From: Candidatus Zhuqueibacterota bacterium
GTDB lineage: Bacteria > Zhuqueibacterota > Zhuqueibacteria > Residuimicrobiales > Oceaniaggregativiventaceae
Direction: 5' to 3'
NCBI GenBank assembly: GCA_016929055.1
Contig: JAFGJN010000165.1
Coordinates: 1-38,663 of the forward strand
DNA length: 38,663 nt
A program made the position numbers and the translations under genes. Of the stretch, positions 2,105-29,934 are shown one piece after another. Under the pieces are notes generated by a model, which made no database searches, was not told the DNA's origin, and was given only the letters and a program-made list of their open reading frames with translations. Every line of letters starts with the position of its first letter. Position 1 is the stretch's first letter.

Positions 2105-4279
2105 CTACAATTCCCCTTTGACACCGATTGTCACATGCCGCATGGGCATCAGATTGCTCTCCATTGGCGCATAATTGTATTGAAAAATGTTGTTGATGCC
2201 CAGCTGCAGGGAATAGCTTTTCCAGCGCCAGGAAACTCGACCATCGACGAATTTCATGGGCACACGATCGTTAATTGGATAGACCTTGACCGCGTCGATT
2301 CGGGCAGCATAACGATAGTCGATTTCGACCTGAACCGCTCCGGTTTTGAGGGACGCTTTGGCGCTGGCCAGAACTTTGGGACGATAAGGCAGGGCTTCGT
2401 CCCATTGCCGATCCCGGTGATCCATGGCGGTGAGGCTGAGCTGCAGGGCTGGTATCCAGGATCGACCGAGCAGGGCAACCTCACTGCTGAGGTTGCTCGT
2501 CGCCTCGACGCCGCGAATCGTGGCGCGGGGAATGTTGCGGAACTGGATCTGGCCGCGAATGAGATCCAGATGGGCCTCGACCATCTCCCAATACTCGTTA
2601 TTGAAAAGAGAGAGATCGATATTCCAATTGGGTGTGAGGTATTGCCGAAAGCCGAGATCATAGGCCCAGGAACTTTCGGATTTCAGGTCGGGATTGGCGA
2701 TGATTTTGAAATTCATGACGCTGAGTTCAAGAAAGCGTTCAACGATGGTTGCGGCACGAAAACCGCTGCCCACCGAAGCACGCAGGCTGGTGCTTTCCCA
2801 GGGTTGCCAATTGAGCCCAAGGCGCGGGCTAAAGAGATCTTCTTTTTGGCCGTCGATCAGCTGATAGCGGTCGTAGCGAAAGCCCGCGGTTAGACGCAGG
2901 TCGCCCCCGATTTTCCATTCGTCCTGCAGATAGGGGCCGATGAAATAGCCTGTGTGGTCGCCGAAATACTTGGTGCTGCCAGCGTCATATTGCACCTGCA
3001 CGCCGGCTGTCAAGGTGTGATTCGATTGAGGAATCCAGTCCGCCTGTACTTCAAATCCCTGGCCGATCGCCGGATTGAATCCGGCGCCCTGACCGAATTG
3101 ATTGCCCATCAGGGTGCGCACAAACGACGCGCGCAGATTGATGGCAAACCGCGCCGAAAAGGGGATCGCCAGTTTGCTATAGGCGGAGATCTGATGGGTT
3201 TTGGCGCGGTTGTCGAGATTTTTGGGGTCGACTTGATAGGGATCGTTTTGCCCGAACCATTGGACAAAAAAGCCGCGATCGATATGGCTGTAAGCGGCGA
3301 ATCCCGTCCATTTGATACCATTGGCGAAACGGTAATCGACTTTGCCGGTCAAATTGCTTTTTTGCGCGTCGCCGAGCTCGGTGTAACCGGTCGTGGCAAA
3401 GCGTCCCACAGAAATTCGCAGGCCCAGGGATTTGTAGCGTCGGCTGTAACTCACATCAGTACGGGTATAGTGCAGCCGATCGGGATCGGTCCAGGACCAT
3501 TCGGAAAAAACCGGCTTGTCATAGCGTCCGGCGCTGGCAGAGAACATCAACTTGCCCTGAGGGCTGGGGTCTTTGGTGATGACATTGACCACACCGCCAA
3601 GAGCCGACGAACCCCAAAGCGTCGAGCCCGCGCCTTTAAGAACTTCGATCTGCTCGACGTCCAGAGGCGGCAGCATATCCCAGTTGAATTCTCCGGTATC
3701 GCTGGCATGGACCGGCACGCCGTCAAGGAGCAACAGCACCTTGTTTCCGGCGCCGAAGGTATAACCGGTGGAACCGCGGATGTTGATCTGATTGCCGACA
3801 AAATGCACACCCGGAGCACTCTCCAGCGCCTGCTGCAGATCCATGGGATTCCGCCTTTCGATCTCGCTCGATGAAACCACCGAGATCGAAACCGAAGCCT
3901 GATCCAGGCGTTGCTGGGTTTTTCCGGCCAACACGACGATCGGGTCGAATTGGATAGCGGTTTGCTGCAACTCTGCAGTCAGCTCGGTCGAGCGCTGCGG
4001 TTGTACCCGAATGTTTTCCACGGAATGGGCGCGAAACCCGATCATGGAAACCCGCACAGTATAGATGCCTGGCGGTATCCTGTCTATTTCGAACCGGCCG
4101 TCCGGGTCGGCTGAAGCGCCGCGCAGCGTGCCGAGAATCTGAATGTTGGCACCGGGCAGCGGTTCACGCGTATCCGCGTCGATCACTCGGCCATGGATCG
4201 ATCCGTTTACCGCCAGAGCCGGAAGAACGGCGACGAGAAGCAAAACCGTCGACCAGAGTGCCAGGGTTTGTCGTTTCAT
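2105..4279 (-). CDS. TonB-dependent receptor with N-terminal carboxypeptidase-regulatory-like domain (paralog A)
   Basis: 724 aa; signal peptide, GSIHGRVIDADTREPLPGANIQILGT...RGASADPDGRFEIDRIPPGIYTVRVSMIGF, plug domain (DLQQALESAPGV...INIRGSTGY...LLLLDGVPV...IEVLKGAGSTLWGSSALGGVVNVITK), C-terminal beta-barrel. Confidence 0.93.
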   Translation of the reverse strand: MKRQTLALWSTVLLLVAVLPALAVNGSIHGRVIDADTREPLPGANIQILGTLRGASADPDGRFEIDRIPPGIYTVRVSMIGFRAHSVENIRVQPQRSTELTAELQQTAIQFDPIVVLAGKTQQRLDQASVSISVVSSSEIERRNPMDLQQALESAPGVHFVGNQINIRGSTGYTFGAGNKVLLLLDGVPVHASDTGEFNWDMLPPLDVEQIEVLKGAGSTLWGSSALGGVVNVITKDPSPQGKLMFSASAGRYDKPVFSEWSWTDPDRLHYTRTDVSYSRRYKSLGLRISVGRFATTGYTELGDAQKSNLTGKVDYRFANGIKWTGFAAYSHIDRGFFVQWFGQNDPYQVDPKNLDNRAKTHQISAYSKLAIPFSARFAINLRASFVRTLMGNQFGQGAGFNPAIGQGFEVQADWIPQSNHTLTAGVQVQYDAGSTKYFGDHTGYFIGPYLQDEWKIGGDLRLTAGFRYDRYQLIDGQKEDLFSPRLGLNWQPWESTSLRASVGSGFRAATIVERFLELSVMNFKIIANPDLKSESSWAYDLGFRQYLTPNWNIDLSLFNNEYWEMVEAHLDLIRGQIQFRNIPRATIRGVEATSNLSSEVALLGRSWIPALQLSLTAMDHRDRQWDEALPYRPKVLASAKASLKTGAVQVEIDYRYAARIDAVKVYPINDRVPMKFVDGRVSWRWKSYSLQLGINNIFQYNYAPMESNLMPMRHVTIGVKGEL

Positions 4280-5127
4280 TCGCCCCTCCCGTCCCCGGGT
4301 AGGGTTTGTATAGCGGATTCCCGAACCAGAGACCAGTCGGCTTCTATATCGATGCCTGAGATGATTTGACCGGAACTGACAAAGACCCGGCCTTCGCGCT
4401 CGGGGCGGCGCGGATCGCGGTAAAAGCCGAGGGTGCGGAAATCGGTCAGCGCGGCGCGTTCCGGCAGCCAGAATACCGCGATGTAGCTGATCATGCCGCT
4501 GGTAATCGGCAGATCAAAGTGATGCGGATTGGTTTCGACGCTGAAATCAATGGATTTGAGAAAAATTAAATAGTCGATCGATTCTACCGGTTTGACCTCA
4601 TAGGCCGCCACTGCCACCGCCGAAGTATTAGGCGGAAAGGGACCGTTAAAGGTGACTGTTCCGGTGATGCGCGAATCGCGCTTGACCGCACCCCAGTGGG
4701 CGTTGAGCCGGGCTTCATAGACGGGATTGTCGGCCGTCAGGTCAAACGATTCGGGCAGTTTGCTGGTCAGATCGATGGACATGGAGAGAATATCGGCGAG
4801 ATTCGACTTGCGGTCCGTGCTGTACCACCAGAGCATATAAGCGTCATAATGGCCATAGGGCAGATCGAGCTCGGCCCACACCGTGTCGCGATCAAAAGCA
4901 AGACTGTTGGGGCTGTGATAGAGCTCGTTGATGGCGTGCGGCGGAAACTCGGGCGCCACCACCAGGTAAACGCCCTGAGTATCGGCCGGCCGCTCGCCTT
5001 GATAAACGACTCGAACGCGCAGCTTGCCAGGCAAAGGCTCGATGCCATAGTCAGTTGTGCAGGCTGAAAAGAGCAGGAGCAGGCCCCAACAGATTGTGTG
5101 TGTGGATTTAATACAAATTTTTATCAT
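4276..5127 (-). CDS. Hypothetical lipoprotein (receptor-associated, paralog A)
   Basis: 283 aa; lipobox LLLLFSACTTD; ATGA overlap with the downstream TonB receptor; C-terminal beta-domain ending DIEADWSLV, similar in layout to ORF 14641..15150. Confidence 0.75.
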   Translation of the reverse strand: MIKICIKSTHTICWGLLLLFSACTTDYGIEPLPGKLRVRVVYQGERPADTQGVYLVVAPEFPPHAINELYHSPNSLAFDRDTVWAELDLPYGHYDAYMLWWYSTDRKSNLADILSMSIDLTSKLPESFDLTADNPVYEARLNAHWGAVKRDSRITGTVTFNGPFPPNTSAVAVAAYEVKPVESIDYLIFLKSIDFSVETNPHHFDLPITSGMISYIAVFWLPERAALTDFRTLGFYRDPRRPEREGRVFVSSGQIISGIDIEADWSLVRESAIQTLPGDGRGE

Positions 5128-6965
5128 CTGAGCAACACCATTTTTTGCGTCTGTTGCTGATCGGGTGTGGCCACTCGTACGACATAGAGCCCACCAGCGA
5201 CAACTCGGCCTCTATCGTCGCGCCCATCCCAGGACAATTCGTGCACTCCGGCATCGAAACGCTCCTCGGCAAGCTGCCGCACCAGCCGGCCGCGCACATC
5301 GAATATCCGTGCCGTAACCTGCCGGTCTCTCCCGAGCCGAAAACGCACGACTGTGCCCGGATTAAAAGGATTGGGATAGACCGGTAAGAGCTCGAATTGC
5401 TGTGGCAGGCCGATGTCGGGGCGGGATTCCACCTCGGTCATCAGGCGTGATGCTGTGATAACCGGGTTTTCAATCCATCCGACGATTTTTTCGGCCAAAG
5501 CCGGGTCGGTATGGGCAGGCAGAAAATAAGCGGTGTAATCGAGTTCGAGATTTACCGGACTGTCCGGCGTCAGGGAAAAAAACGAGATGCCGTGATCTCC
5601 GTAGGAAACGAGATCGCCGCTGTCTGATATTTCGGGACTGTTCGTCGTCTCCCGGCGACCGACGACAATCGCTTCGTCCGCGACGCCGCCCTCCTCACTG
5701 TCGTGGTAATAGAGCGACACGCTCTTCCAGTTGGTCTCGTCGAAACGGGTAAAACTCAAGAGCGCACCCGGGTCGCCGGTGATTAGAGACCATTCTTCGA
5801 TCGGAACGTCGACCGTTGTATCCGGTGAATCCGCCACGCCATCCACCAATAGCCCGTTTGGATTGTTACGGTTGTAAAATCGCATACCCGATGCATTGGC
5901 GTTGAAATCCCAGGACTGGCGCATATAGTTGAATTCGACGGTCAAACCGATACCGAAAACCTGGCGCAATTCCACCGGATCCAGACTGGCCCCGCCTTCG
6001 ATCGTGCCGCTGTGAGGATAGAACTTGGTGCGTACGTAAAATGCCAGATCATCGTAGCGCAGCAGAATGTTATAGCGGCATTCGCGCACGATGCGCACGA
6101 CCGGATTTTTTGTGTACGAGAGATAATCGTCGTTGTCATAGAGCATAAAGGCATTTTCCTGCGCCGACGGTGTGTTTTCATTGTCGCCGAATGTGATGTT
6201 GTAAGGCGAGCCTTCGATAAAAAACCGTCCATTGAAGCGCATCTTTTGCCGGTCAAAAATATCGACTCCGGCGCCAAAGGGCGGTTTGATGACCATGTCC
6301 CGCACCAATCCGTCTTCCGAATCCAGGCGCATGGCATAGTGGTTGCTTGCGGCGGTCTGGGTTTCCGGATCGAATGTGAGGCCGTATTTGTCGGCCACCG
6401 CTTCCGGCATACGCAGGGTGGAAGAGCGGTAGAGGTAGGCATAGGCGGCGATTTGCGGATTGCGGGGATCAGTCAGCTCAATTTCCAGCCTGTCGGATTG
6501 TTGCGCTTCGGCATCGTCGATCCACGATCGTTCCGGCGCTCGGTCGCCCATATCGCCGATCATAAAGACGAGCTCGTCGTCGATGTCGAACAGGGTCACC
6601 CATTCACCGCTCGGGTTTTGGGCCATGTAGAGGGTGTCCTGAAAGCTGTAATCGCCATAGACATTGGTGTTTTCATTGATATAGAAATGGCGCAACATGC
6701 GAAGGGATTCGGGTTTGCCGAAAGGAAAGGGATCGCGAATCCGAATGCGTTCGTCGATCTGAAACGGGATCATTTCCCAGGTTTCGCTCGCCTGATGATA
6801 AGCATAGCAAAAGATTTCCTGGACTGGAATGCCGGTAAAGGCGTCCAGTTCTCCGCCGTTGATGACAAAGGGCTCATAGGGGCGCTCCTCGTAAAGCGGT
6901 GCGGCCAAAAGCCCTGTGGCAAAAAGCAGAGCGGAAACAATCGAGTAAAAAATGCGATTTTTCAT
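5124..6965 (-). CDS. Secreted protein with FlgD-Ig-like/T9SS-like C-terminal domain (paralog A)
   Basis: 613 aa; signal peptide; C-terminus LLPVYPNPFNPGTVVRFRLGRDRQVTARIFDVRGRLVRQLAEERFDAGVHELSWDGRDDRGRVVAGGLYVVRVATPDQQQTQKMVLLR; 4-bp overlap with the next gene. Confidence 0.85.
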   Translation of the reverse strand: MKNRIFYSIVSALLFATGLLAAPLYEERPYEPFVINGGELDAFTGIPVQEIFCYAYHQASETWEMIPFQIDERIRIRDPFPFGKPESLRMLRHFYINENTNVYGDYSFQDTLYMAQNPSGEWVTLFDIDDELVFMIGDMGDRAPERSWIDDAEAQQSDRLEIELTDPRNPQIAAYAYLYRSSTLRMPEAVADKYGLTFDPETQTAASNHYAMRLDSEDGLVRDMVIKPPFGAGVDIFDRQKMRFNGRFFIEGSPYNITFGDNENTPSAQENAFMLYDNDDYLSYTKNPVVRIVRECRYNILLRYDDLAFYVRTKFYPHSGTIEGGASLDPVELRQVFGIGLTVEFNYMRQSWDFNANASGMRFYNRNNPNGLLVDGVADSPDTTVDVPIEEWSLITGDPGALLSFTRFDETNWKSVSLYYHDSEEGGVADEAIVVGRRETTNSPEISDSGDLVSYGDHGISFFSLTPDSPVNLELDYTAYFLPAHTDPALAEKIVGWIENPVITASRLMTEVESRPDIGLPQQFELLPVYPNPFNPGTVVRFRLGRDRQVTARIFDVRGRLVRQLAEERFDAGVHELSWDGRDDRGRVVAGGLYVVRVATPDQQQTQKMVLLR

Positions 6966-7101
6966 AATTCACCCACGTTTGACACTTGGCCGGCGGATTG
7001 CCGGCGATTTGCTTGTGATCGGTTCTTTAGCGAACCGAGTCGACGCGGTTTTTCTTTGAATTACGCGCAGTCGTCCCGAATTGCGTGTCCTCGGCAGCGA
7101 A

Positions 7102-8238
7102 TCAGCGGTTGCGTGCTTGTATCGGGCAGCGGGGATCCTCTATTTCTCCTAAATGTCCGATACGGCAAAAGTATTCCCACAGATTGACTGTGGAGCAGAC
7201 ATGGCGCGGTGCAAAGAGCACATACTCTCCAATACCGACCTTGCTGGATCCGTTCAGCTGCACCACGGTGTGTTCCTCGCTCCAGCGCACGAATTTCGCT
7301 TCGGCCAGGCTGATGCGATCGGGTGGCCCCTGATCGACGGCCCAGCGTTTGTGGCCGACATTGAGCGTGACATGCTGGTCGTCGATGCGGTCCATGACCT
7401 GAGCGAGTATCAGGGCCGCAAGCTGAAATTTTCCGGGCATCAGAGCCTCATAGGTCGAGTCGTGGTAAACCCAGGTCCCGGGAGAAAGGCGGATTTGTCT
7501 GTTGGGTACGAAATCGAGCAGATTTTCCAGATCGACGAGTGCACTGGGTGTCCCGCCGACCATAATTTCGGCTGCATTCAGTCCGGCATGGTCGAATTTG
7601 TGGAGAATCTGCACCAGCGTTTGCATGCAGTGCGCGGATTCGCTTCGGCGCTGTTCCGGATCGGGATAATGGTTATGCCCGTCGTAGGCATGAAGACCGA
7701 CAAAATGCAGAAAACCTTGCGCCTGAGCGGCACGCCCGAGTTCCAGTGCGAGTTGTGGTTCGATGCCGGTGCGGTGCATGCCGATGTCGATATCGATATA
7801 GAAATCCCATGTCCGCCGGGAATTTTCGCCTATCCAGGCGATGTGCTCGAGTTGGGAAATCTGAATCGCCCAACGAGTTAGCGGGTAACGTTCCGCCAAC
7901 CTGTCCAGCCGTTGAATCAGATGCGGAAGGGGCGGATAAGCAACAAAAACCCGTTCAGCTCCTGTCTGGGCGAGCATATCAATTTCGTTGGGAGAGGCTT
8001 TGAAACAGGTGACCCCGTTTTCCATCAGCAGCCGGGTCACCCAGGCCGATTTATGGGTTTTCACATGTGGACAAAGGATTCCCAGATCTTGTTTTCCGGT
8101 GAGTTCGGCCAAATAGTTGCGCATGCGACGGATGTTTTCCTCCACGCGATCACGGAACACCACCAGACGCGGGGTTTCGATCGCCTTTGGATCGGCGATG
8201 ATGTATCGACCGCTAATGCCGGGAAGATTAAAAATCAT
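7102..8238 (-). CDS. Alanine racemase N-terminal domain / D-threonine aldolase-like (DSD1) PLP enzyme
   Basis: 378 aa; PHVKTHKS PLP-lysine motif near the N-terminus, C-terminal metal-site-like segment (FAPRHVCSTVNLWEYF). Confidence 0.85.
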   Translation of the reverse strand: MIFNLPGISGRYIIADPKAIETPRLVVFRDRVEENIRRMRNYLAELTGKQDLGILCPHVKTHKSAWVTRLLMENGVTCFKASPNEIDMLAQTGAERVFVAYPPLPHLIQRLDRLAERYPLTRWAIQISQLEHIAWIGENSRRTWDFYIDIDIGMHRTGIEPQLALELGRAAQAQGFLHFVGLHAYDGHNHYPDPEQRRSESAHCMQTLVQILHKFDHAGLNAAEIMVGGTPSALVDLENLLDFVPNRQIRLSPGTWVYHDSTYEALMPGKFQLAALILAQVMDRIDDQHVTLNVGHKRWAVDQGPPDRISLAEAKFVRWSEEHTVVQLNGSSKVGIGEYVLFAPRHVCSTVNLWEYFCRIGHLGEIEDPRCPIQARNR

Positions 8239-9355
8239 CTTCAGCCACCACCAACAGCTCCGAGCTCATGTCCGCCGTAAAACCAGCGGCGGCCGTGGTT
8301 GCCAATTGCATATAAAAGGCGTTTCCATTGTCGATTCCTTCGGCTTTCAATAAAGCCCAGCGAGGGAGATCGACCAGGGGGATGTCTATTCCGACGCACA
8401 TGATCAGGCGGCGGTGATCCAGGTGCCCGATTTGCAGCATGTCGGCAGCGATATCAGCCGGTATCCAGCCGTAATTGGGAAGGAAAAACTCGTTCCAAAC
8501 GCGCTCGCGCAATCGACGGTTCTCCTCGATCGAAAATCCGGAAACCAATCGTGCCGGAATGCCTGACGCTCGACACAGTGCGGTGTAGAGCATGGCGTAT
8601 CGAGCCTCATCGTCCTTTATGGTCTCCAGCATAGTGGCAGCGCCGCGTTTGTTCAATGAATCGGAATAAGCTGCGGTTTGGTGCAGCCATTCGGCTAATG
8701 CGGTTGCCCGATCAAGTGCACTGCCGCAATTGCGGGTGATCTGTCGCGCGCTGTCGCGTAGCACTTCGGTTTGTTCCAGTCCCGGCTCTTCTCGAGTATA
8801 AAAGCGATAAAAAGCGTCCGTTTGATAGGGCCCCACATTTTCCGGCTGCAGATCGTACTTGATGGCATAGGCGCGATAGCGAAAGCGGCGCACTACCTCT
8901 ATTTTTCCCCCATCCAACAGGCGATCGGATAGCACCCAGTGGCGAATGCGATTGCCATGATATCGCTCTTCGTTGGTGTAGAAATTTGGCGGTTCGATTC
9001 TGAGATAATCGATAAACAGCTGGGTCGGCCGTTCGACCGGGTCGGATGCCCAGAGGGTTAGATGGGGCAAAGAGGCCCGGGCGATGCCAAGCGAATCGGC
9101 CAGCCGTTGCATTGCCTCATGCGAAAACAAACGGATGTTTTCGGCCTTCCAGCGCAACTCCACTGTATAGATTTTCCCCTCCTCCAGGGCGGGGCGGTAT
9201 CGTACGTCCGGTGCCTTGAGGGCTGGTAAGGTTTTTACAGCGGTTGTATCTACCTGCGGTCGTTTTTCCAAAAGGGCTGCACAACCCCAAAGGACGGGAA
9301 TGATTACACCAATTATCCACCCGGCCTTGAGGCGCAGGCGATCGAATGCATTCAT
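8228..9355 (-). CDS. Transglutaminase-fold lipoprotein (catalytic residues apparently lost)
   Basis: 375 aa; lipobox VLWGCAALL; TGc-like core MLYTALCRASGIPARLVSGFSIEENRRLRERVWNEFFLPNYGWIPADIAADM. Confidence 0.75.
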   Translation of the reverse strand: MNAFDRLRLKAGWIIGVIIPVLWGCAALLEKRPQVDTTAVKTLPALKAPDVRYRPALEEGKIYTVELRWKAENIRLFSHEAMQRLADSLGIARASLPHLTLWASDPVERPTQLFIDYLRIEPPNFYTNEERYHGNRIRHWVLSDRLLDGGKIEVVRRFRYRAYAIKYDLQPENVGPYQTDAFYRFYTREEPGLEQTEVLRDSARQITRNCGSALDRATALAEWLHQTAAYSDSLNKRGAATMLETIKDDEARYAMLYTALCRASGIPARLVSGFSIEENRRLRERVWNEFFLPNYGWIPADIAADMLQIGHLDHRRLIMCVGIDIPLVDLPRWALLKAEGIDNGNAFYMQLATTAAAGFTADMSSELLVVAEDDF

Positions 9356-9360
9356 GGTGC

Positions 9361-10254
9361 TCAGGCGTCCTTTTTTTGCTGTTGCACATACAGGGGTGGC
9401 GCCATACCTGCCTTGTCCTGACCCATGTAAAGCGTGACATGTGGAAAGGGAATTTCGATATCGTTTTGGTCAAAAATCTTTTTGATTCGGCGGTTGAATT
9501 CCCGCCCCACCCGCCACTGTTTGATGGGCTTGGTGGTCAGAAATCCTTTGACGATGAGGGCGGAATTTGCAAATTTGTCGAGGCCGAGAATCTCGGCCGG
9601 TTGCAGGATATCATCGGCGAATTCCGGATCGTTGCGCAGGGATTCATCCACCCGTTTGATGAGTTCGATCACCTGATCGATGTCTTCTCGATAGGCGACA
9701 CCGATATCGAAAACAAAACGCGAAAAGCCTTTGGTCATATTGGTAACGGTATCGATCTGGCCATTGGGAATGAAGTGAACTTTGCCTTCCAGGTCGCGCA
9801 AAATCGTCAGTTTCAGGTTGACTTTTTCAACCAGACCTGCTTTGCCGGCAATTTCGACCACATCGCCTACGCGGATCTGGTCTTCCAGCAGGATAAAAAA
9901 GCCATTGATCACATCCTTGACCAGACTTTGGGCGCCGAAACCTATAGCCAGGCCGACAATACCGGCAGCGGCCAGGACAGGCCCGATTTCGATATCGAGT
10001 TCGCCGAGTACCATCGCTGCCGCCACTAAAATCAGCATCACGGTCAAAATATGGCGGATGACCGAGCTCAAGGTTTCGGCTCGTTTTTGCGCTTCCACAT
10101 CCAGCGTATGGCTGGTGATCACCCGCGTCAAGCGTTTGGCAACAATGCTCACCACATGCAGGCCGATAAAAGCCAGGATCAAAATAATGACAATATTCAA
10201 GAGATGTCCAAGCATGCCTTCCGGAATTTTATCAAGCCAAGCGGAAAAATTCAT
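9361..10254 (-). CDS. Small-conductance mechanosensitive channel (MscS family)
   Basis: 297 aa; TM3-like AAAGIVGLAIGFGAQSLVKDVINGFFILLEDQIRVGDVVEIAGKAGLVEKVNLKLTILRDLEGKVHFIPNG. Confidence 0.93.
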   Translation of the reverse strand: MNFSAWLDKIPEGMLGHLLNIVIILILAFIGLHVVSIVAKRLTRVITSHTLDVEAQKRAETLSSVIRHILTVMLILVAAAMVLGELDIEIGPVLAAAGIVGLAIGFGAQSLVKDVINGFFILLEDQIRVGDVVEIAGKAGLVEKVNLKLTILRDLEGKVHFIPNGQIDTVTNMTKGFSRFVFDIGVAYREDIDQVIELIKRVDESLRNDPEFADDILQPAEILGLDKFANSALIVKGFLTTKPIKQWRVGREFNRRIKKIFDQNDIEIPFPHVTLYMGQDKAGMAPPLYVQQQKKDA

Positions 10255-10418
10255 AAATAGCTCCTTTGTCCAATATCACATGATCGGTCGGCTGTTCGAA
10301 CTCGAACTTATCATGTGCGTTGGAATCAATACAGATGCAGAATTTTCGGCAAGAGTTCAACTCTTTGCACCGAATGGTTTCCCTATCTTTTGTTATCATT
10401 CTTCTTAAGGTCAGTCGT

Positions 10419-12107
10419 TCAATTCGGCGGCAGCACGAGAATTTTTTGGACGCCCGATCGATGGCCCAGAGAAACGCGCAGCCAGTAAACGCCGGATGGT
10501 ACAGTTTGCCCGAATTCATCGGTGCCGTTCCAGCTCAGGGTGGTTGCGCCGTCGAGCCGGGATCGGGCAAAGCGGTGAATTCGGCGGCCCAACACATCAT
10601 AGATCACCGCTTCGAATGTACCTGTTCCGCCGCTGATGTGGGCGGTCAGGGGCGATCGACCGGGATCAAAGGGATTGGGATAGGCTGGATCGAGGGTAAA
10701 ATTGCCGGGCGTCGTCGGCTCAAAGGCGACGGATGTGGCCGCCGTTTTGCTCTGCTTGTCGGCGCTGACAGCCGGAGCGGTGTTCTCCCAGGCGACCAAC
10801 TTTTGCGCCAGTTCCGCTCCTTGATTTGCCTCCGGTACGAAATAGGAGACAAAATCAAAGGTGATGCGATCCGAAAAGAGAACCTGGTTCGCCTGCTGGG
10901 CCTGGAAGAGCAATCCCACATCGCCATAGGAAACAAGGTCGCCGCTGTCCGTTGTGCCATCCGATGTGCCGCCATCGCTGCGGTCGGCATAATAGAGACG
11001 AGCGGATTCCGGCGGGTTAACCGAGGGCAGTGAATAGATCGAGACCACACTGCCGAAATCACCGCTGATCATCATCCACACGGGTTCACCAACTGTTTGG
11101 TCCAGAGTTTGGTCAATCGAATCTGGCTGGCCATCGACGGTGATCGCTTGATCGGTGTTGCAGTCGGAATAAAAACGCGCCCCCGCCACTTCGGCGTTGA
11201 AATCGAGGGACTGGCGCAGCGTCTTGACGCCGGCGAGTGCCAACATTTGCGGGCTTTCGAGCTGGCCTTCCTGTACAACCAAACGAAAACTGTAGGGGAA
11301 ATAGTGGACTTTGTAATCGATGTTCAGCTGCGGGGATAGAAATTGGGTCGGGTTGGCCATCAGTGTTTCCTGATCCTGAAAGGCGCGCACCGGTTTGACC
11401 ACAACCGCGGATTTTTTCCATTTCAGCGTGTCTTCGTCAAAGGAATAGGGACCGATTCCGTATAATATCGTGGGTTCTCCAGCCAGGCGGATTTTTAGTC
11501 GATCGAGGATGTCGCGTTCAGGTTCGAGCGAGAGGGCGAGATGTTCGGGCCAGCCGTTGGCGCTCAGGCCCAGGGTATAGTTTGGTGTTTCCCAGCGGTG
11601 CGCAGCGGGTCGGCTGGATGGGCCGGGCGAATGCACAAGGTAGCCATCCGTTTTCAGATGGTGGCTGTCCCCGGAAAAAGCAAAGAGGTAACACCAGGCC
11701 TTCCGATTGTCGAGCGGATCGTGCAGAGCGATTTCAATACGAGGTTGCGTTGTATCGGTTGCAGCGGGCCAGTGCCAGGTCGGCGCGCGATCGCCGAGAT
11801 CCTGAGGCATCACCACCAGCTCGTCTTCGGCGTCGATGCGGTTGTTTTGCGATTCGGTTTTGTTGTATTTGCGCACGCCGTTTTCGATCGCGATATCATC
11901 CACCTGCCAGGGCAGGGCTCTCCATTCCTGTTCGAATTCCGCATAGGCAAAGAGGCCCATCGAATCGGTCGGCCAGTCGATGGGCGGCAGTTGTTTGCCG
12001 AGAATCACCACGGGAACGTAGGCGCGGGACAGAGAGTCGGCTGGGGCTTCTGTCGCTGTTCCGAAAAGAATGATCAGTGGCAGATAGAACATGTAAAACC
12101 GATGCAT
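10419..12107 (-). CDS. Secreted protein with FlgD-Ig-like/T9SS-like C-terminal domain (paralog B)
   Basis: 562 aa; DPAYPNPFDPGRSPL...YDVLGRRIHRFARSRLDGATTLSWNGTDEFGQTVPSGVYWLRVSLGHRSGVQKILVL; shares the 'DELVxMxxDxGDRAP' and 'DSGDLVSYGDxG' segments with ORF 5124..6965. Confidence 0.85.
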   Translation of the reverse strand: MHRFYMFYLPLIILFGTATEAPADSLSRAYVPVVILGKQLPPIDWPTDSMGLFAYAEFEQEWRALPWQVDDIAIENGVRKYNKTESQNNRIDAEDELVVMPQDLGDRAPTWHWPAATDTTQPRIEIALHDPLDNRKAWCYLFAFSGDSHHLKTDGYLVHSPGPSSRPAAHRWETPNYTLGLSANGWPEHLALSLEPERDILDRLKIRLAGEPTILYGIGPYSFDEDTLKWKKSAVVVKPVRAFQDQETLMANPTQFLSPQLNIDYKVHYFPYSFRLVVQEGQLESPQMLALAGVKTLRQSLDFNAEVAGARFYSDCNTDQAITVDGQPDSIDQTLDQTVGEPVWMMISGDFGSVVSIYSLPSVNPPESARLYYADRSDGGTSDGTTDSGDLVSYGDVGLLFQAQQANQVLFSDRITFDFVSYFVPEANQGAELAQKLVAWENTAPAVSADKQSKTAATSVAFEPTTPGNFTLDPAYPNPFDPGRSPLTAHISGGTGTFEAVIYDVLGRRIHRFARSRLDGATTLSWNGTDEFGQTVPSGVYWLRVSLGHRSGVQKILVLPPN

Positions 12108-12130
12108 ATATAACCTCTATTGCAATCTCG

Positions 12131-12300
12131 GAGTTTGTGTCAACAGAATCCAATAAAAAGTATTTTTATATCACTCGTGTCCCATCGTCAGATGGGACAC
12201 GAGTGAACTTTATTGTTTTTGAAGCAGTCACCATTTCCACCCGTTTGGCACAAATGCCTTGTTGTGTTTTTTGGGGATTCGGTACGAAGCACCGAATCAG
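12131..12300 (-). repeat. Dispersed intergenic element, copy 1 (with nested hairpin)
   Basis: Reverse complement reads GATTCGGTGCTTCGTACCGAATCCCC...TTTGTGCCAAACGGGTGGAAATGGTGACTGCTTCAAA...[hairpin]...ATAAAAATACTTTTTATTGGATTCTGTTGACAC, clearly alignable to 24387..24515. Confidence 0.85.
12171..12206. repeat. Perfect 16-bp inverted repeat (hairpin) inside repeat copy 1
   Basis: TCACTCGTGTCCCATC-GTCA-GATGGGACACGAGTGA. Confidence 0.95.
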
Positions 12301-12416
12301 GGGCCGTTCAAGACGGTACAAGCTCGCCTTTATAACAACGGTTTAGACGGCCAGTCTGTTCCGTAACAATACACTGCGGACGACTGGCGTTATTTTTGTT
12401 GTTCTGACCGGCCTCT

Positions 12417-14627
12417 TTAGATTTCGCCGCTGACGGCGAGTGCATAGCTTTTGATCTCGCCCAAAACGCGTTCGGAAACGGTGTAATGATAGTTCAGGGC
12501 GTTTTGTATCAACACTTGAAATCGATATTTTTTCCAGTTATAGCCAAGCCGCACATCCCAGACGCGCATGGGCACGCGTTCATCCAGCGGATAAACGGCC
12601 ACGCGCTCGATACGGCTCATATAGCGAAAATCCGTTTCGGCAAAAAAGCCGTTCCAGGAAAACCGCGGAGAGAAAAAACCGATCCACTCGGGGCGATAGA
12701 GCAACGTTTGTCCGGATTCCTTTTCCCGCGGATCCATCCAGGTTGCGGATGCTTCGATGATGAGCCGATCTTTCCAGACGCGCCAGCGCAGCAGTGTCTC
12801 GATGCCCAAAATAGTCGCGGCCGGATAGTTTTTAAACTGAGCTGTGAGGTCGGAAGCCAGGGTCGGCTCGATGAGATGCTTGTAATAGCTGTAAAAGCCG
12901 GTCAATTCGCAGTAAATGCTTTGGCCGATCGATTGACGCATGCCGATGTCGAGAAGAGTCGAGCGTTCCGGCATGAGATCGGGATTGGGCAGGGCGCGAA
13001 AATCTTTTGACCCGGCGCTGATAAAGCGCTCGACCACGGTGGCGGCGCGAAAACCGCGGCCGAATGAAGTGTGCAAAATGGTGCCGTCCAGAGGCTGAAT
13101 GCTCAGCCCGATCTTGGGACTGAACTGAAATTCCACCGAGTCTCCGACTAGGGTATAGGTGTCGAGGCGCAAGCCGGTATTGAGGTGCAAACGATCGGTC
13201 AGGTGCCAGACATTCTGCACATAGGGTGAGATGCCGTCTGCACGCCGGCTACCGTAAAATTCCGATTCAACCCGGTCGTGACGATAATCCATGCCAAAGG
13301 AAAGACTGTGCTGCGGATGCGGCCGCCAGTTGAACTGTGCTTCTCCACCCAATCCGAGGGCCGGCGTAAAGGCCTCGGTTATATTGAACGGTACGCCGAC
13401 CAGCTGCTGGTTATAGGAGAGGCGCAGGCGCAGCGATAATGAGGGCGAAAACAATTTGTCATAGATCAGGTAGGTCAGGTAGCCGTTCAAGCGATAGCGA
13501 TTGCCGACATCCGTGGGTGGAACTTGAAGCGCCTGGTTCTGTTCGCGCCATTGCAAAAAAAGTTCGCGATCGTCGCTGCTGAATGAGGCAAAAGCGGTCA
13601 AAGACGAATAATCGGGCAGGGTCCAGCGCGTTTTTCCTGTCAGGAACCAGCGGTTAAATTCACCGTTCTGTCGATCGCCGGTCGAGCTGTGATGGGAGAG
13701 AGCAAGACGAAGACCGACCGGCCCAAAGCTTTGCGAATAGCCAAGATCGGTGCGCTGATAGTGGAGCTGCTTGTCGGTCCATTTCCATTCGGGGACAGCG
13801 GGATCGGCATAAAGACCGGCGGTTTGCCGAAAGGAAACGGAAGCACGGCGTTCCGGTAGTTTGGTCAGAATGTTGACGACGCCGCTGATTGCGCCCGATC
13901 CATAGATGGAAGAGGCGGCGCCTTTGAGGACTTCGATATGATCCACTTCGGTGATGGGAACGATGTTCCAGTTGACCTGGCCCAGATCGCTGGTCATGAT
14001 CGGCACGCCATCGAGCAGCACCAGTTGGCGATGGCCTCCTAGCCGGTTATATCCGGATCCACCACGGATATTGATATTTTCGCCCACCAGGCTGACTCCG
14101 GCCAGATTGACCAGCGCCGCATCGATGCTCAGATTGTTGCGGCGACGAATCGTCTCTTGCCCGAGTACGGCCACACTGGCGGCCGCTGCGCTCAAGTCTT
14201 CCGGCAGGCGAGAACTGGTGACAACGATTTGGTTGAGTTCGATAAAAGAGGGCTCCAGCTCGACTTGCACACTTGAGTGAGCCGATGCCTGCACCACCAA
14301 GGGGTGGCGCAGGGTCTTGTAGCCGATATAGCTGATTTTGAGAATGTAGTGACCCGGCGGAATGCGATAAAGAGCAAACCGTCCGTCGACGTCGCTGCTG
14401 GTCCCGAGTAAAGTCCCTTCGATCTGAATATTGGCGCCAGCAAGCGGTTCCTTTGTGCCCAGTTCACGAATGGTACCGCTCACACTCCCAGCGATCTGGG
14501 CCTGAACGGCCGGCGCAAAGAGAAAGGGCAGAGCGATGATGACCATCGTCAACAGGAATAGTCGGCTCATACGGAAATCAAAAAGCTGGTGACAGCAGGG
14601 AATGGGTTGTACGGCAAAAAGAGTCAT
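12417..14627 (-). CDS. TonB-dependent receptor with carboxypeptidase-regulatory-like domain (paralog B); start may be the internal Met at 14570
   Basis: 736 aa; AGSVSGTIRELGTKEPLAGANIQIEGTLLGTSSDVDGRFALYRIPPGHYILKISYIGY, plug (INIRGGSGYNRLGGHRQLVLLDGVPIMTSDLGQVNWN...IEVLKGAASSIYGSGAISGVVNILTK); MSRLFLLTMVIIALPFLFAPAVQA is a better signal peptide start. Confidence 0.92.
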   Translation of the reverse strand: MTLFAVQPIPCCHQLFDFRMSRLFLLTMVIIALPFLFAPAVQAQIAGSVSGTIRELGTKEPLAGANIQIEGTLLGTSSDVDGRFALYRIPPGHYILKISYIGYKTLRHPLVVQASAHSSVQVELEPSFIELNQIVVTSSRLPEDLSAAAASVAVLGQETIRRRNNLSIDAALVNLAGVSLVGENINIRGGSGYNRLGGHRQLVLLDGVPIMTSDLGQVNWNIVPITEVDHIEVLKGAASSIYGSGAISGVVNILTKLPERRASVSFRQTAGLYADPAVPEWKWTDKQLHYQRTDLGYSQSFGPVGLRLALSHHSSTGDRQNGEFNRWFLTGKTRWTLPDYSSLTAFASFSSDDRELFLQWREQNQALQVPPTDVGNRYRLNGYLTYLIYDKLFSPSLSLRLRLSYNQQLVGVPFNITEAFTPALGLGGEAQFNWRPHPQHSLSFGMDYRHDRVESEFYGSRRADGISPYVQNVWHLTDRLHLNTGLRLDTYTLVGDSVEFQFSPKIGLSIQPLDGTILHTSFGRGFRAATVVERFISAGSKDFRALPNPDLMPERSTLLDIGMRQSIGQSIYCELTGFYSYYKHLIEPTLASDLTAQFKNYPAATILGIETLLRWRVWKDRLIIEASATWMDPREKESGQTLLYRPEWIGFFSPRFSWNGFFAETDFRYMSRIERVAVYPLDERVPMRVWDVRLGYNWKKYRFQVLIQNALNYHYTVSERVLGEIKSYALAVSGEI

Positions 14628-14640
14628 AAGCGATTTCTTG

Positions 14641-15150
14641 TCAATTCTGTTGCGGGTTTGTGGAGGTCGCCGGGTATTGGCCCATCAAGCGCCAATCCAC
14701 CAGAATGTCGATATCCGTTGCAATTGGGTGATCTTTGGAAAGGACGACTGGCCGGTTTTCGACAGTAAACGATATCGGATCAAATCCATAAAAACTGAGA
14801 ATGTTGCCATAGTTCCAGGTTTTGCCCTTTTCCTTCCAGATTGCTGCGACGATCGAATAGCTTGCCAAAGGTGCGGGAATTTCATAAGATGAACGATCCC
14901 GGCTCAGGTTGATCGCGGAATAGGTAAAGACCACATCGCCGAGAGATTCGGGTGGCACTCGAACAGCGGCGATAACCCGTACCGATTCGACATTTTCCGG
15001 CTGCAGCTCGGGATTGAGGAAAACGATGTCGCCGGTGATTGTTGAATTCAGTGTTCCCAGCCCATGATCCATTTCGCAAGCCGCGTTGAGCAGCAAAGCT
15101 GCAAGCGGGATCAATCCGGCGCGTCGGCGCAACAGCTCCATTGCTTTCAT
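14641..15150 (-). CDS. Hypothetical lipoprotein (receptor-associated, paralog B)
   Basis: 169 aa; lipobox ALLLNAACEMD; ITGDIVFLNPELQPENVESVRVIAAVRVPP...YSIVAAIWKEKGKTWNYGNILSFYGFDP...DIDILVDWRLM; 4-bp overlap with the upstream peptidase gene. Confidence 0.7.
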   Translation of the reverse strand: MKAMELLRRRAGLIPLAALLLNAACEMDHGLGTLNSTITGDIVFLNPELQPENVESVRVIAAVRVPPESLGDVVFTYSAINLSRDRSSYEIPAPLASYSIVAAIWKEKGKTWNYGNILSFYGFDPISFTVENRPVVLSKDHPIATDIDILVDWRLMGQYPATSTNPQQN

Positions 15151-16334
15151 CGTTTTGCCGCTCGCATCTGGTATTCCTGAATGACTTTTTCCGCGCCATC
15201 CTTGTGGAGAAGAATGGCGAGGATTTTTAATTTGATGTAATCGCCATGAAAGAAAAAATAGCCCGGATATCGGCCTTTAAAGGCGGTAGTCGATGAGTCC
15301 TTGATGAGAAACCAGTCCTCGCCGGTTATCTCTGTGTATCCGATCAAATGGACGCCATGATCGTCGGCGGAAGAGCCGTTGTCGAACCGGAATTCACGGC
15401 TGTGCGAATCGATATATTCGGAGGGGATGTCAAAAGTGGGCACCACTGCGAGATCCGCTTCGCCCGTGCGGCCGGGTTCGCTCACGTCGCCAGCAATAGC
15501 GACGCTGATTCCTTTTTGAATAGCGCTTTTGATCGTCATATAAAAATCATCGAGGGGCACATTGTAATAGTCCTTGCTGTTCCACCAGTTGTCGGGCACC
15601 TTGTAGGCATCCTGGGTCCAATAGGGCAGGTGTCGAAAAGAGATCAACGAGACGTAATCATCCAAAGGCAGCTGTAAATCCTCCTCGAGGTATTGCCGAG
15701 GCGTCATCCATTCGCCGTCCACCTGGATCGAATCCGGCGGCGCACCCATAACCTTGTTCAGAATGAGCCGGGTAGCGGTGATCACCTGGTCTTCGTTCCA
15801 GATCTCCTCTTTGGCGATGTAATCGAGATAACCTTTCAGTTCCTCAATCAGGCGTTCCTGATTGTAGGGGTGCTGATCGTCGAGACGTCCGCTATAGTCA
15901 CCGGCGCGCACCGCGCCGTATTGTTTCATCCGTTCGATTACGGCATTGTGCTGCGATCCCTCGGCGATTAGTGAATTGCCCTTTTCGCGTACAAATCGCC
16001 GCACTTTTTCGACATATTCCCAATAAACCGTAAACATACGCGACAAGGCGATTTCACGTCCCGACAGACGTTTGATTTCCGATTCCAGCAGCGAGGTGGC
16101 TGAAAAGCACCAACAGGTTCCGGTGGTGTCCTGGCGCACCGGTACGGTATGGTAAACCGGGCGATAGGCGTCCGGCGACTTGACCGAGAACCGGCTGACG
16201 TCGAATCGCAAAATACTTTTTTCCTTGCCGTAAAAATCGGCCTCGGTTCGATAGATTGTTTTATCGCGAGGTTTATCAGCGGCATGAGCGGACATGACGG
16301 CTAGTGTTAAAAGAATAAATGACAAACGCCTCAT
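15147..16334 (-). CDS. Secreted C1-family (papain/bleomycin-hydrolase-like) cysteine peptidase
   Basis: 395 aa; signal peptide; VRQDTTGTCWCFSATSLLESEIKRL (Cys nucleophile region) and DDHGVHLIGYTEITGEDWFLIKDSS (His region). Confidence 0.88.
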   Translation of the reverse strand: MRRLSFILLTLAVMSAHAADKPRDKTIYRTEADFYGKEKSILRFDVSRFSVKSPDAYRPVYHTVPVRQDTTGTCWCFSATSLLESEIKRLSGREIALSRMFTVYWEYVEKVRRFVREKGNSLIAEGSQHNAVIERMKQYGAVRAGDYSGRLDDQHPYNQERLIEELKGYLDYIAKEEIWNEDQVITATRLILNKVMGAPPDSIQVDGEWMTPRQYLEEDLQLPLDDYVSLISFRHLPYWTQDAYKVPDNWWNSKDYYNVPLDDFYMTIKSAIQKGISVAIAGDVSEPGRTGEADLAVVPTFDIPSEYIDSHSREFRFDNGSSADDHGVHLIGYTEITGEDWFLIKDSSTTAFKGRYPGYFFFHGDYIKLKILAILLHKDGAEKVIQEYQMRAAKR

Positions 16335-27091: not shown

Positions 27092-28882
27092 CTATTCCTG
27101 TTCCATTTGTTGCACAATCGCTCCCTGACCATTGAAATCCAGGATCAGGCAATCATCGTTGTGGCGGATTTCCAGACGACGGCTCCCGGGTTCGCCGTTC
27201 AAAAAAGGGCCTTTGAAAAAGCCATGTTCGCTGAAATCGATTGGCTGTCCGTTGAGCAGACGATCGCCATCAAAAGCAAAAGTCATCACATCTCCAGCGG
27301 GGGTAGAATAGCTGATCAGACCGGTCTCGTCAAAGGTGTCGTGCACCAGAGTGGTATGGCGCAGAGTCTCTTTGAATGCATCAAAAGAGGGAAAAGAACC
27401 GGCTTGCTCGACCTGCACGACGCATCCGTTCTGCAGCGATTCGCTGCGCATCCGCCAGCCGTGCTCTTCTTTGATCCAGCGGTAGGGTTTGAGCGGATAA
27501 AATGCAATGAAGGTCTGATCACTACGGCAAAAAATCCATCCCGATTCATCCTCATGCCGGGCCTCGAGATCACGGGGGAAAAACCCGTCGATATGGGGAT
27601 AGCGCACCCCAGGCGGAAGGTCGTACAAAACAATGATCGAGTTTCGGTGTTGAAAGGTTTTTTCATACGGCGAGCTGCTCGCCCATTTACCCGGATCGGC
27701 ATAGTAGGTATGCGCTTTGATAACCTGGTCGGTGGCAAATTTCATCTCTTCGGGGAAAAACATGCCCATATCCTCTTCCCCGACAAAAGGATGAACTGTA
27801 AACAGCGTACCATAAGGGCTTGAACCGACGAAGCTGACATCCCAGGTATGTTGCTGAATTGGCTGCAGCACGGCGCCGCCCATCATCGAGCCGAGAGCAA
27901 AGTCTTTGCACATATAGGTGGTCTTGTACACCCGCGGATTGCGTTCCTTTCCCAATCGCAGAATGTGGCGGACGCGTTTGGTTTCATTATGTGTGTAGGG
28001 TTTATCGCGTTCTGTGCCAATTCGGTGGAGAATGTCAGGTGGGACGAAATCGCTCAGTGCGGCAGGCAAAAAGATGCTGTTGAACAGCGGTTCCTCAGTC
28101 TGGGCGAAAAAGAGCCAGGCCCAATAATTCATCTCTGAAGCGGGATGGCGTTTGATCAGCAAGCGATCCGGGTATTCGCGGCTGTGGGCGCCGGCATAGA
28201 CACCTTGCAAATGTTCAACGCTGTAATCGGCTATCAGCCACAAAAGCATACCGTGGATTTTTTCTTTGAGTACCGGGTCTTCACAGAACTGATGCAGGCC
28301 AATCAGACCCGAGAGAAAGACGGCCATATAGGTAGGGGAATCGAATTCTCCCTGACCGATAGTGGTGGTGAGTTCGATCCAGTTTTCGAACCAGCCTTCG
28401 GCTTCCCAGCGGTTTTCCTCGCTCGATTTTCCGGTATACCACTCATGGCCCGGCAGGTTGGGAAAAGCCTGGGCGGCGAGATAGAGAGCGGTATAATAGA
28501 GGGTCAAATGGTTTTCCGTATCTCCGCGATAGAAATTGCCACTGCGGATCAGTTCTTTCACTCCGTTGTGTGTCTCATTTGGCAGCCAGGGTCGCGCTGC
28601 ACAATAACCGATCATCAGGCGATAGAATTGAAACATTCCCATTGGCGTGCCTTGATAATCCTCGGTCAGGCGGTGAAACATTTCGATACCTGTTTGTCGG
28701 TTCGGACCATGGACGATGCGTGCGGCGGCGACGAGAAAATTGCTCTGGTCGGTGCTGTCAGCCCAATCGAGAATGAGTTCACAGCGTTGACGATAGTCCT
28801 GGGCGTATTGGCTTTTGGGCTCGGTCTGCGACGTCCCTGAAACGAACAAAAGAGCGCAGAGAACCGGAATAAATCGATGCAT
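27092..28882 (-). CDS. Secreted protein of unknown function, possibly (alpha/alpha)-toroid plus beta-sandwich as in heparinase/lyase-like proteins
   Basis: 596 aa with signal peptide; Trp/Tyr-rich helical N-terminal half, beta-rich C-terminal half. Family assignment is tentative. Confidence 0.55.
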   Translation of the reverse strand: MHRFIPVLCALLFVSGTSQTEPKSQYAQDYRQRCELILDWADSTDQSNFLVAAARIVHGPNRQTGIEMFHRLTEDYQGTPMGMFQFYRLMIGYCAARPWLPNETHNGVKELIRSGNFYRGDTENHLTLYYTALYLAAQAFPNLPGHEWYTGKSSEENRWEAEGWFENWIELTTTIGQGEFDSPTYMAVFLSGLIGLHQFCEDPVLKEKIHGMLLWLIADYSVEHLQGVYAGAHSREYPDRLLIKRHPASEMNYWAWLFFAQTEEPLFNSIFLPAALSDFVPPDILHRIGTERDKPYTHNETKRVRHILRLGKERNPRVYKTTYMCKDFALGSMMGGAVLQPIQQHTWDVSFVGSSPYGTLFTVHPFVGEEDMGMFFPEEMKFATDQVIKAHTYYADPGKWASSSPYEKTFQHRNSIIVLYDLPPGVRYPHIDGFFPRDLEARHEDESGWIFCRSDQTFIAFYPLKPYRWIKEEHGWRMRSESLQNGCVVQVEQAGSFPSFDAFKETLRHTTLVHDTFDETGLISYSTPAGDVMTFAFDGDRLLNGQPIDFSEHGFFKGPFLNGEPGSRRLEIRHNDDCLILDFNGQGAIVQQMEQE

Positions 28883-28902: not shown

Positions 28903-29934
28903 TCAGAATTGATTTTCTGCGGTTTCGGGCAAAAGCCAGTGAAAATCCCAGACCTCGCTGGTTTCCAATCCGGCAAATTCCCAGGTATCCCCTTCATTCG
29001 AACTGCGCCATACGCCATCACCCAGAGTGCCCGCATAGACCGTCTCGGGGTTATTCGGGTCGGTGGTGAGAGCGTGAATGGCCAGGTTGGTCAGCCCGTC
29101 GTTCACCGGTTTCCAGGATCGACCCAGGTCGCGGCTGCGATAGACGCCGCCGAGGTAGGTGCCGCAATAAAGGGTTTCAGGTTTTCCCGGCACAAAACTC
29201 AGGGCATAGACAGTCAGGTGTTTCAGACCGGTGGATGCGGATTGCCAGCTTTTTCCGTGATCGATCGAGACAAAGACACCATCATCTTCGGTGCCGGCAA
29301 CCAGGATAGAGCTGTTTTCCGGATGCTGCTGCAGGGTACGAATGCCCTTGCCGAGCAGACCGATCGGTTCCCATGACTGGCCGGCGTCAAGGCTGCGATG
29401 CACACCAGCTTCTGTGGCGCAAAAGAGGTGTTCGGGATTTTCTCTGTCGATGATTAGGGTTGGAGTAAAGGTGCTGATCAGACCGTGATTGCAGCCCGCC
29501 CAACTATTGCCGCCGTCGATACTTTTATACAGGCCGTAAGCGGTTGCTGTATAAAGTATCTGTGGATCGTGGGGATGGATGGCGGTTTTCAGACATTCGG
29601 TGATCTCCCATCCGGTGGAAATGCGCCAGGAGGCGCCGCTGTCCTGGGAAATCAATACACCGTTGCCGCAGGCCTGGCAAAGGAGGGTGTCGCCGTTGTC
29701 GAGGAGATGAGCGCTGACAGAAAAAAATTTGCCGTAGGGCCAGCCGAGGTGTTCCCAGCTTTTACCGCTATCGCGTGTGGCGAATAATCCCGCCGCCGGA
29801 TTTTTGATGCCGGGATGGTGATAATTTTTTGTAACGCGGGTTACAACATAGAGCGTTGGCGGTCCCGCCAACGCCTGGTTGCAGCAACCGGCGAGTACGA
29901 ATAACAGAATTCGAGTGATTTTTGATAAAGTCAT
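28903..29934 (-). CDS. Secreted BNR/sialidase-like beta-propeller (Ycf48/VPS10-like repeats)
   Basis: 343 aa; repeated 'S.D.G.SW' Asp-box motifs (FATRDSGKSWEHLG, LISQDSGASW, YKSIDGGNSW, HRSLDAGQSWE, FVSIDHGKSWQ, YRSRDLGRSWK, WRSSNEGDTWE). Confidence 0.88.
   Translation of the reverse strand: MTLSKITRILLFVLAGCCNQALAGPPTLYVVTRVTKNYHHPGIKNPAAGLFATRDSGKSWEHLGWPYGKFFSVSAHLLDNGDTLLCQACGNGVLISQDSGASWRISTGWEITECLKTAIHPHDPQILYTATAYGLYKSIDGGNSWAGCNHGLISTFTPTLIIDRENPEHLFCATEAGVHRSLDAGQSWEPIGLLGKGIRTLQQHPENSSILVAGTEDDGVFVSIDHGKSWQSASTGLKHLTVYALSFVPGKPETLYCGTYLGGVYRSRDLGRSWKPVNDGLTNLAIHALTTDPNNPETVYAGTLGDGVWRSSNEGDTWEFAGLETSEVWDFHWLLPETAENQF

Follow-up and report, generated by a model that had tools for sequence, protein, structure and literature searches.

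Introduction

Import through TonB-dependent receptors with the help of a lipoprotein is known mainly from Bacteroidota and involves a handful of lipoprotein folds. The solved SusCD, BtuBG and XusAB systems each have an anchored lipoprotein that closes over the barrel as a cap and binds the ligand before delivering it to the receptor (PMC7782687, PMC10404256, PMC13142918). BtuB and BtuG import vitamin B12 with a surface lipoprotein lid (PMC10404256), and XusA and XusB import xenosiderophores, XusB (DUF4374) being a lid-like beta-propeller lipoprotein (PMC13142918). Here, we analysed a contig of a Candidatus Zhuqueibacterota bacterium (GenBank assembly GCA_016929055.1, JAFGJN010000165.1; 38,663 nucleotides, the whole of which is referred to as the window) that carries two cassettes, A and B, each with a TonB-dependent receptor, a lipoprotein without a family model and a secreted protein. 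The receptor and the lipoprotein formed a conserved unit across the phylum and probably act as a lipoprotein-assisted importer, while the secreted protein accompanied only some of the pairs.

Compared with SusC/SusD and RagA/RagB, the glycan and peptide importers of Bacteroidota, the cassettes share a conserved gene pair, a CarboxypepD_reg-like domain in the receptor and several paralogous pairs per genome. However, their lipoprotein is a predicted beta-sandwich rather than the helical SusD (tetratricopeptide repeat) fold and matches no SusD family, its gene lies upstream of the receptor gene, and the receptor of about 720 residues fails the SusC/RagA model (TIGR04056; 109 and 113 bits against a cut-off of 368). 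XusA/XusB comes closer in receptor size, and the receptor N-terminal part (N-terminal domain and plug) matches XusA (PDB 9gbc, E = 1e-12); XusB also sits as a lid, as the cassette lipoprotein may, but it is a beta-propeller, and the annotated neighbour clusters of the cassettes included no identified PepSY reductase gene. BtuB/BtuG likewise combines a TonB-dependent receptor with a surface lid in a small-molecule version of the SusCD logic, whereas the lipoproteins are unrelated, the BtuB model (TIGR01779) was failed with 124 and 96 bits against a cut-off of 600, and no cobalamin riboswitch was found with Rfam at any of ten loci. Identity as a heme or hemoglobin receptor (TonB-hemin, TIGR01785) was rejected at 168 and 144 bits against 317, and so was heme import, given that FRA- and NPDL-like stretches exist without a histidine between them and the heme models scored far below cut-off.

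Results

Pairing of the lipoprotein with one receptor subfamily

Up to 82 genomes of the phylum were searched for relatives of the cassette proteins. The lipoprotein family was present in 75 of 82, with about three pairs per genome. We read 78 lipoprotein genes in their genomic context, and a receptor gene followed immediately in 70 of the 75 that lay away from contig ends. Because some of these loci had been picked via the secreted protein or the lipoprotein itself, a count starting from the receptor was needed. Matches of at least 700 bits to a profile of the paired receptors gave 87 subfamily receptors in 41 genomes, 79 of which had the lipoprotein directly ahead. Six of the eight unpaired receptors were located at contig ends and two were real exceptions, so that the pairing amounted to 79 of 81 informative receptors. 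The preliminary description of this DNA had proposed a search for lipoprotein homologues beside TonB receptors in other genomes, and such homologues were linked to receptors in most cases.

The host genome (∼4 Mb) encodes 24 plug-bearing TonB-dependent receptors. Three of them, with scores of 959–1090 bits against the paired-receptor model, belong to the subfamily, and each had the lipoprotein gene ahead of it; the remaining 21 scored no more than 261 bits and were all unpaired. At this receptor density, we infer that fewer than 1% of genes would stand before a receptor by chance.

Lipoprotein distances were correlated with receptor distances over 65 pairs from 37 genomes (Mantel r = 0.90). 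When partners were shuffled within each genome, which preserves the relationships between species, the correlation fell to a mean of 0.22 and a maximum of 0.51 in 2000 shuffles. We concluded that the receptor–lipoprotein pair is a real and well-supported unit. In this respect the preliminary proposal, in which a receptor and a lipoprotein of an unnamed family work as one functional unit along the lines of SusCD, held for these two components.

A sister group of receptors (∼500–660 bits) lacked the standard lipoprotein. At three of the eight sister loci examined, the gene upstream encoded a single-domain protein related to the lipoprotein family (E = 3e-11 to 3e-7), and at four it encoded an unrelated lipoprotein-like protein. 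At loci L198, L199, L200 and L201, the sister receptors were preceded by another unnamed lipoprotein-like family with C-x-K-G followed by GGD..G.W, apparently a replacement of the partner. The sister loci suggest that receptors of this branch generally have a lipoprotein partner, the fold of which is replaceable.

Three old lineages of the pair

The paralogy of the A and B proteins, put forward in the preliminary description, was borne out by BLASTP for all three components: the receptors were 37% identical over 727 columns (E = 2e-158), the secreted proteins 28% over 633 (E = 2e-50) and the lipoproteins 31% over 126 (E = 1e-7). Lipoprotein B aligned about equally well to either half of lipoprotein A, indicating that A consists of the B-type domain twice. 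Both receptors contain a CarboxypepD_reg-like domain, a plug and a beta-barrel, with PF07715 and PF00593 matched far above cut-off.

A third pair, hereafter C-type, was found on another contig of the host genome (G000:C138, locus L035) without a secreted protein. It belongs to a block that recurs across the order, in which a TetR gene, a FadL-type porin gene, the lipoprotein, the receptor and a lipidated M49 peptidase gene follow one another, in some cases with oligopeptidase F. Phylogenetic trees resolved A, B and C as three old lineages common to the order or class, with clade support for the lipoproteins of >0.99 for B, >0.99 for C and 0.92 for A, and the B and C receptors clustered likewise. 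A recent local duplication from A to B was therefore rejected. The arrangement of A and B with other genes between them was retained in several families of the order.

The lipoprotein family

Neither lipoprotein matched any Pfam, NCBIfam or PDB sequence, whether searched as single sequences or as alignments of 52 and 57 rows. Searching 52 family members against Pfam (24,736 models, E up to 0.1) yielded five isolated weak matches, each from a single member, and none of them was a TonB-associated lipoprotein family such as DUF4249. Plasmids were also searched for relatives of the lipoprotein and none were found.

The AlphaFold model of lipoprotein A contained two tandem beta-sandwiches with a mean predicted local distance difference test (pLDDT) score of 76.6; the structural models in this study were built from only seven and eight sequences. 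Domain number varied with lineage: all 11 B-type lipoproteins examined had one domain, the A- and C-type had two, and two loci had about four (L131, 5885–7615, and L136, 5373–7193, with 486–488 residues matched).

The lipobox cysteine was invariant across the 52 aligned lipoproteins and began a CxxDxGL motif in almost all family members, with the copies CTTDYGI in lipoprotein A (window positions ∼5040–5061) and CEMDHGL in lipoprotein B (∼15058–15078). The lipoprotein export signal of Bacteroidota is K(D/E)2, from which CxxDxGL differs, and the motif may serve this phylum for sorting or docking.

The secreted protein

The C-termini of the secreted proteins had been described preliminarily as FlgD C-terminal domains. 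The resemblance to FlgD was reproduced, as secreted protein A matched PF13860 with 34.7 bits (cut-off 27) and the C-terminus of the structural model resembled both FlgD and the sorting-domain structures of the type IX secretion system (T9SS). However, TIGR04183 was matched by secreted proteins A and B with 34.5 and 24.0 bits, respectively (cut-off 23), so the label is better replaced by T9SS type A sorting domain. The SprA translocon (SprA_N) was present in the host genome in two contig pieces and in 19 of 20 genomes in a tally. Sorting domain and translocon are as in known T9SS type A cargo, while the body of about 490 residues falls outside the described families and the operon is shared with a receptor–lipoprotein pair. 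This body had no Pfam, NCBIfam or PDB sequence match, and its model (mean pLDDT of 62.6, the N-terminal region being of low confidence in parts) made the fold search informative for the C-terminus only.

The N-terminal family of the secreted protein was found in 58 of 60 relatives. Among genome contigs, a scan that used the secreted protein as query came no further than three close relatives. Its gene was upstream of 38 of the 78 lipoprotein genes and absent from C-type cassettes; 11 of 75 copies had no partner nearby, others adjoined their own paralogues, and some genomes encoded the secreted protein without the lipoprotein. It is located upstream of the pair in A and downstream in B, which are separate lineages. 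The distances between secreted proteins were correlated with those of lipoproteins and receptors (r = 0.87 and 0.85, respectively; 32 sets) against at most 0.30 in full shuffles, and since this control shuffled everything, part of the correlation reflects shared ancestry. The three-part unit proposed in the preliminary description was well supported for the pair and more weakly for the secreted protein, an optional member.

Gene layout of the two cassettes

The gene positions and orders of the preliminary description were reproduced, and its ATGA overlaps could be read directly (Table 1). Both cassettes are on the minus strand. The gene order in A is secreted protein, lipoprotein and receptor, with four-base ATGA overlaps at both junctions, and that in B is C1 peptidase, lipoprotein, receptor and secreted protein, with an ATGA overlap between peptidase and lipoprotein and 13 bases between lipoprotein and receptor. 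Cassette A lacks an equivalent of the C1 peptidase, which is a facultative neighbour.

Table 1. Features of the two cassettes and the genes between them
Feature	Position in window	Strand	Evidence
TonB-dependent receptor A	2105..4279	-	PF13715, PF07715, PF00593; 1090 bits to paired-receptor model
Lipoprotein A, two tandem beta-sandwich domains (predicted)	4276..5127	-	BLASTP repeats against lipoprotein B; AlphaFold model
Secreted protein A, ∼490-residue unnamed N-terminal region and T9SS type A sorting domain (FlgD-Ig-like)	5124..6965	-	TIGR04183, PF13860
Alanine-racemase-fold pyridoxal phosphate (PLP) enzyme (D-serine dehydratase / 3-hydroxy-D-aspartate aldolase type)	7102..8238	-	Pfam/NCBIfam
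Transglutaminase-fold protein, facultative, between cassettes	8228..9355	-	PF01841; 7 loci
Secreted protein B, paralogue of secreted protein A	10419..12107	-	TIGR04183; BLASTP
Hairpin with a perfect 15-bp stem, between receptor B and secreted protein B	12172..12205	-	Gap z-score -5.7
TonB-dependent receptor B	12417..14627	-	Pfam; BLASTP; 1005 bits to paired-receptor model
Lipoprotein B, one beta-sandwich domain (predicted)	14641..15150	-	E = 4e-44 with family model
C1-like (bleomycin hydrolase type) peptidase	15147..16334	-	PF03051; same neighbour in 4 loci

A gap of 309 bases (12108–12416) separates the receptor and secreted protein genes of cassette B. In the host genome it folded more stably than shuffled sequences, with two strong hairpins, of which the perfect one is a possible terminator or processing site. 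The corresponding genes abut or overlap in several relatives, unlike in the host.

The PLP enzyme (cluster c3) was a frequent neighbour directly upstream of A-type secreted protein genes (13 loci). Elsewhere in the window, a protein of 596 residues without a Pfam match (27092–28882) adjoins a Sortilin/BNR-repeat protein (28903–29934).

Discussion

By analogy with SusCD, BtuBG and XusAB, each cassette probably encodes a lipoprotein-assisted TonB-dependent importer whose lipoprotein is unrelated to those of the known systems. The receptor would serve as the energised outer-membrane channel, and the lipid-anchored lipoprotein, with one or two (rarely more) beta-sandwiches, would most likely be positioned on the barrel's outer face. 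There it might capture the ligand and deliver it to the plug, a role that SusD, BtuG and XusB fill with unrelated folds. Surface exposure, a physical complex and a lid-like action are thus all predicted from these analogies. The secreted protein would leave through the type IX system and is probably an optional surface helper, for example in nutrient binding or processing. As for the ligand, peptidases recurred beside the pairs, namely C1 beside B (four loci) and M49 (six loci) and an M3-type cluster (three loci) beside C, and with the D-amino-acid-type PLP enzyme beside A they make peptides or unusual amino acids a weak first guess. The FadL-type porin beside C points away from a peptide ligand.

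Several observations weigh against a ligand-capturing lipoprotein partner. Two subfamily receptors lack the lipoprotein, and one locus (L074 in genome G017, 7049–7879) has kept an A-type secreted protein and lipoprotein with the adjacent receptor missing. Fold searches with the lipoprotein model found only generic sandwiches, of the immunoglobulin, pilin, adhesin and transthyretin kinds, and the TM-scores were low. The family alignment shows no prominent conserved grouping of ligand-type residues, and control by a B12 or other riboswitch was rejected as Rfam gave no match at the ten loci. The genome with the receptor-less locus also encodes a subfamily receptor without a lipoprotein far away (C5:2175563).

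Obligate pairing and co-variation would likewise be expected if the lipoprotein were a dedicated assembly or gating factor, facing the periplasm or assisting barrel assembly and neither capturing ligand nor being external. Periplasmic contact is conceivable between the predicted beta-sandwich lipoprotein and the CarboxypepD_reg domain of the receptor, which is presumably of the transthyretin-like type. We consider such a role unlikely, however, given that in A-type cassettes the lipoprotein diverges faster (∼50% identity) than the receptor (65–80%), as expected of an exposed part adapting to ligands, that the existence of forms with one, two or more repeats suits an external module free to vary better than an invariable assembly factor, and that the lipoproteins known to partner such receptors are lids on the outside (PMC10404256, PMC13142918). 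It is still less probable that the cassettes are ordinary SusC/SusD pairs or known heme, B12 or siderophore systems diverged past annotation: the receptors are weakly similar to heme, B12 and siderophore receptor models and to solved receptors, but the curated cut-offs for TonB-hemin, BtuB and SusC were missed widely (168 of 317, 124 of 600 and 109 of 368 bits), and the lipoprotein is predicted to be all-beta and found no lipoprotein family among the Pfam models.

The place of the secreted protein is less clear-cut. It could quite plausibly stand outside the transporter, as one member of a large family of T9SS cargo that shares the operon for regulation only, which would be compatible with a lipoprotein-assisted importer. 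Its optional occurrence upstream of the lipoprotein genes, the copies without a nearby partner and the genomes that encode it without the lipoprotein all speak for this, whereas its divergence tracks that of the pair, to which shared operon inheritance may contribute, and its gene flanks the pair on opposite sides in the A and B lineages. That receptor, beta-sandwich lipoprotein and T9SS cargo together form one three-part surface import machine distinct from SusCD, BtuBG and XusAB is, in our view, rather doubtful.

In sum, a lipoprotein family without any model is linked to a single receptor subfamily and occurs in 75 of the 82 genomes from an uncultured phylum. Through this link, hundreds of hypothetical proteins could be annotated as likely components of transporters, and the question whether the lipoprotein lid is a general principle that can draw on different folds gains a further test case. 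If the secreted T9SS protein did belong to the machine, it would connect two surface systems normally investigated separately, and a three-part uptake complex would be widespread in this phylum.

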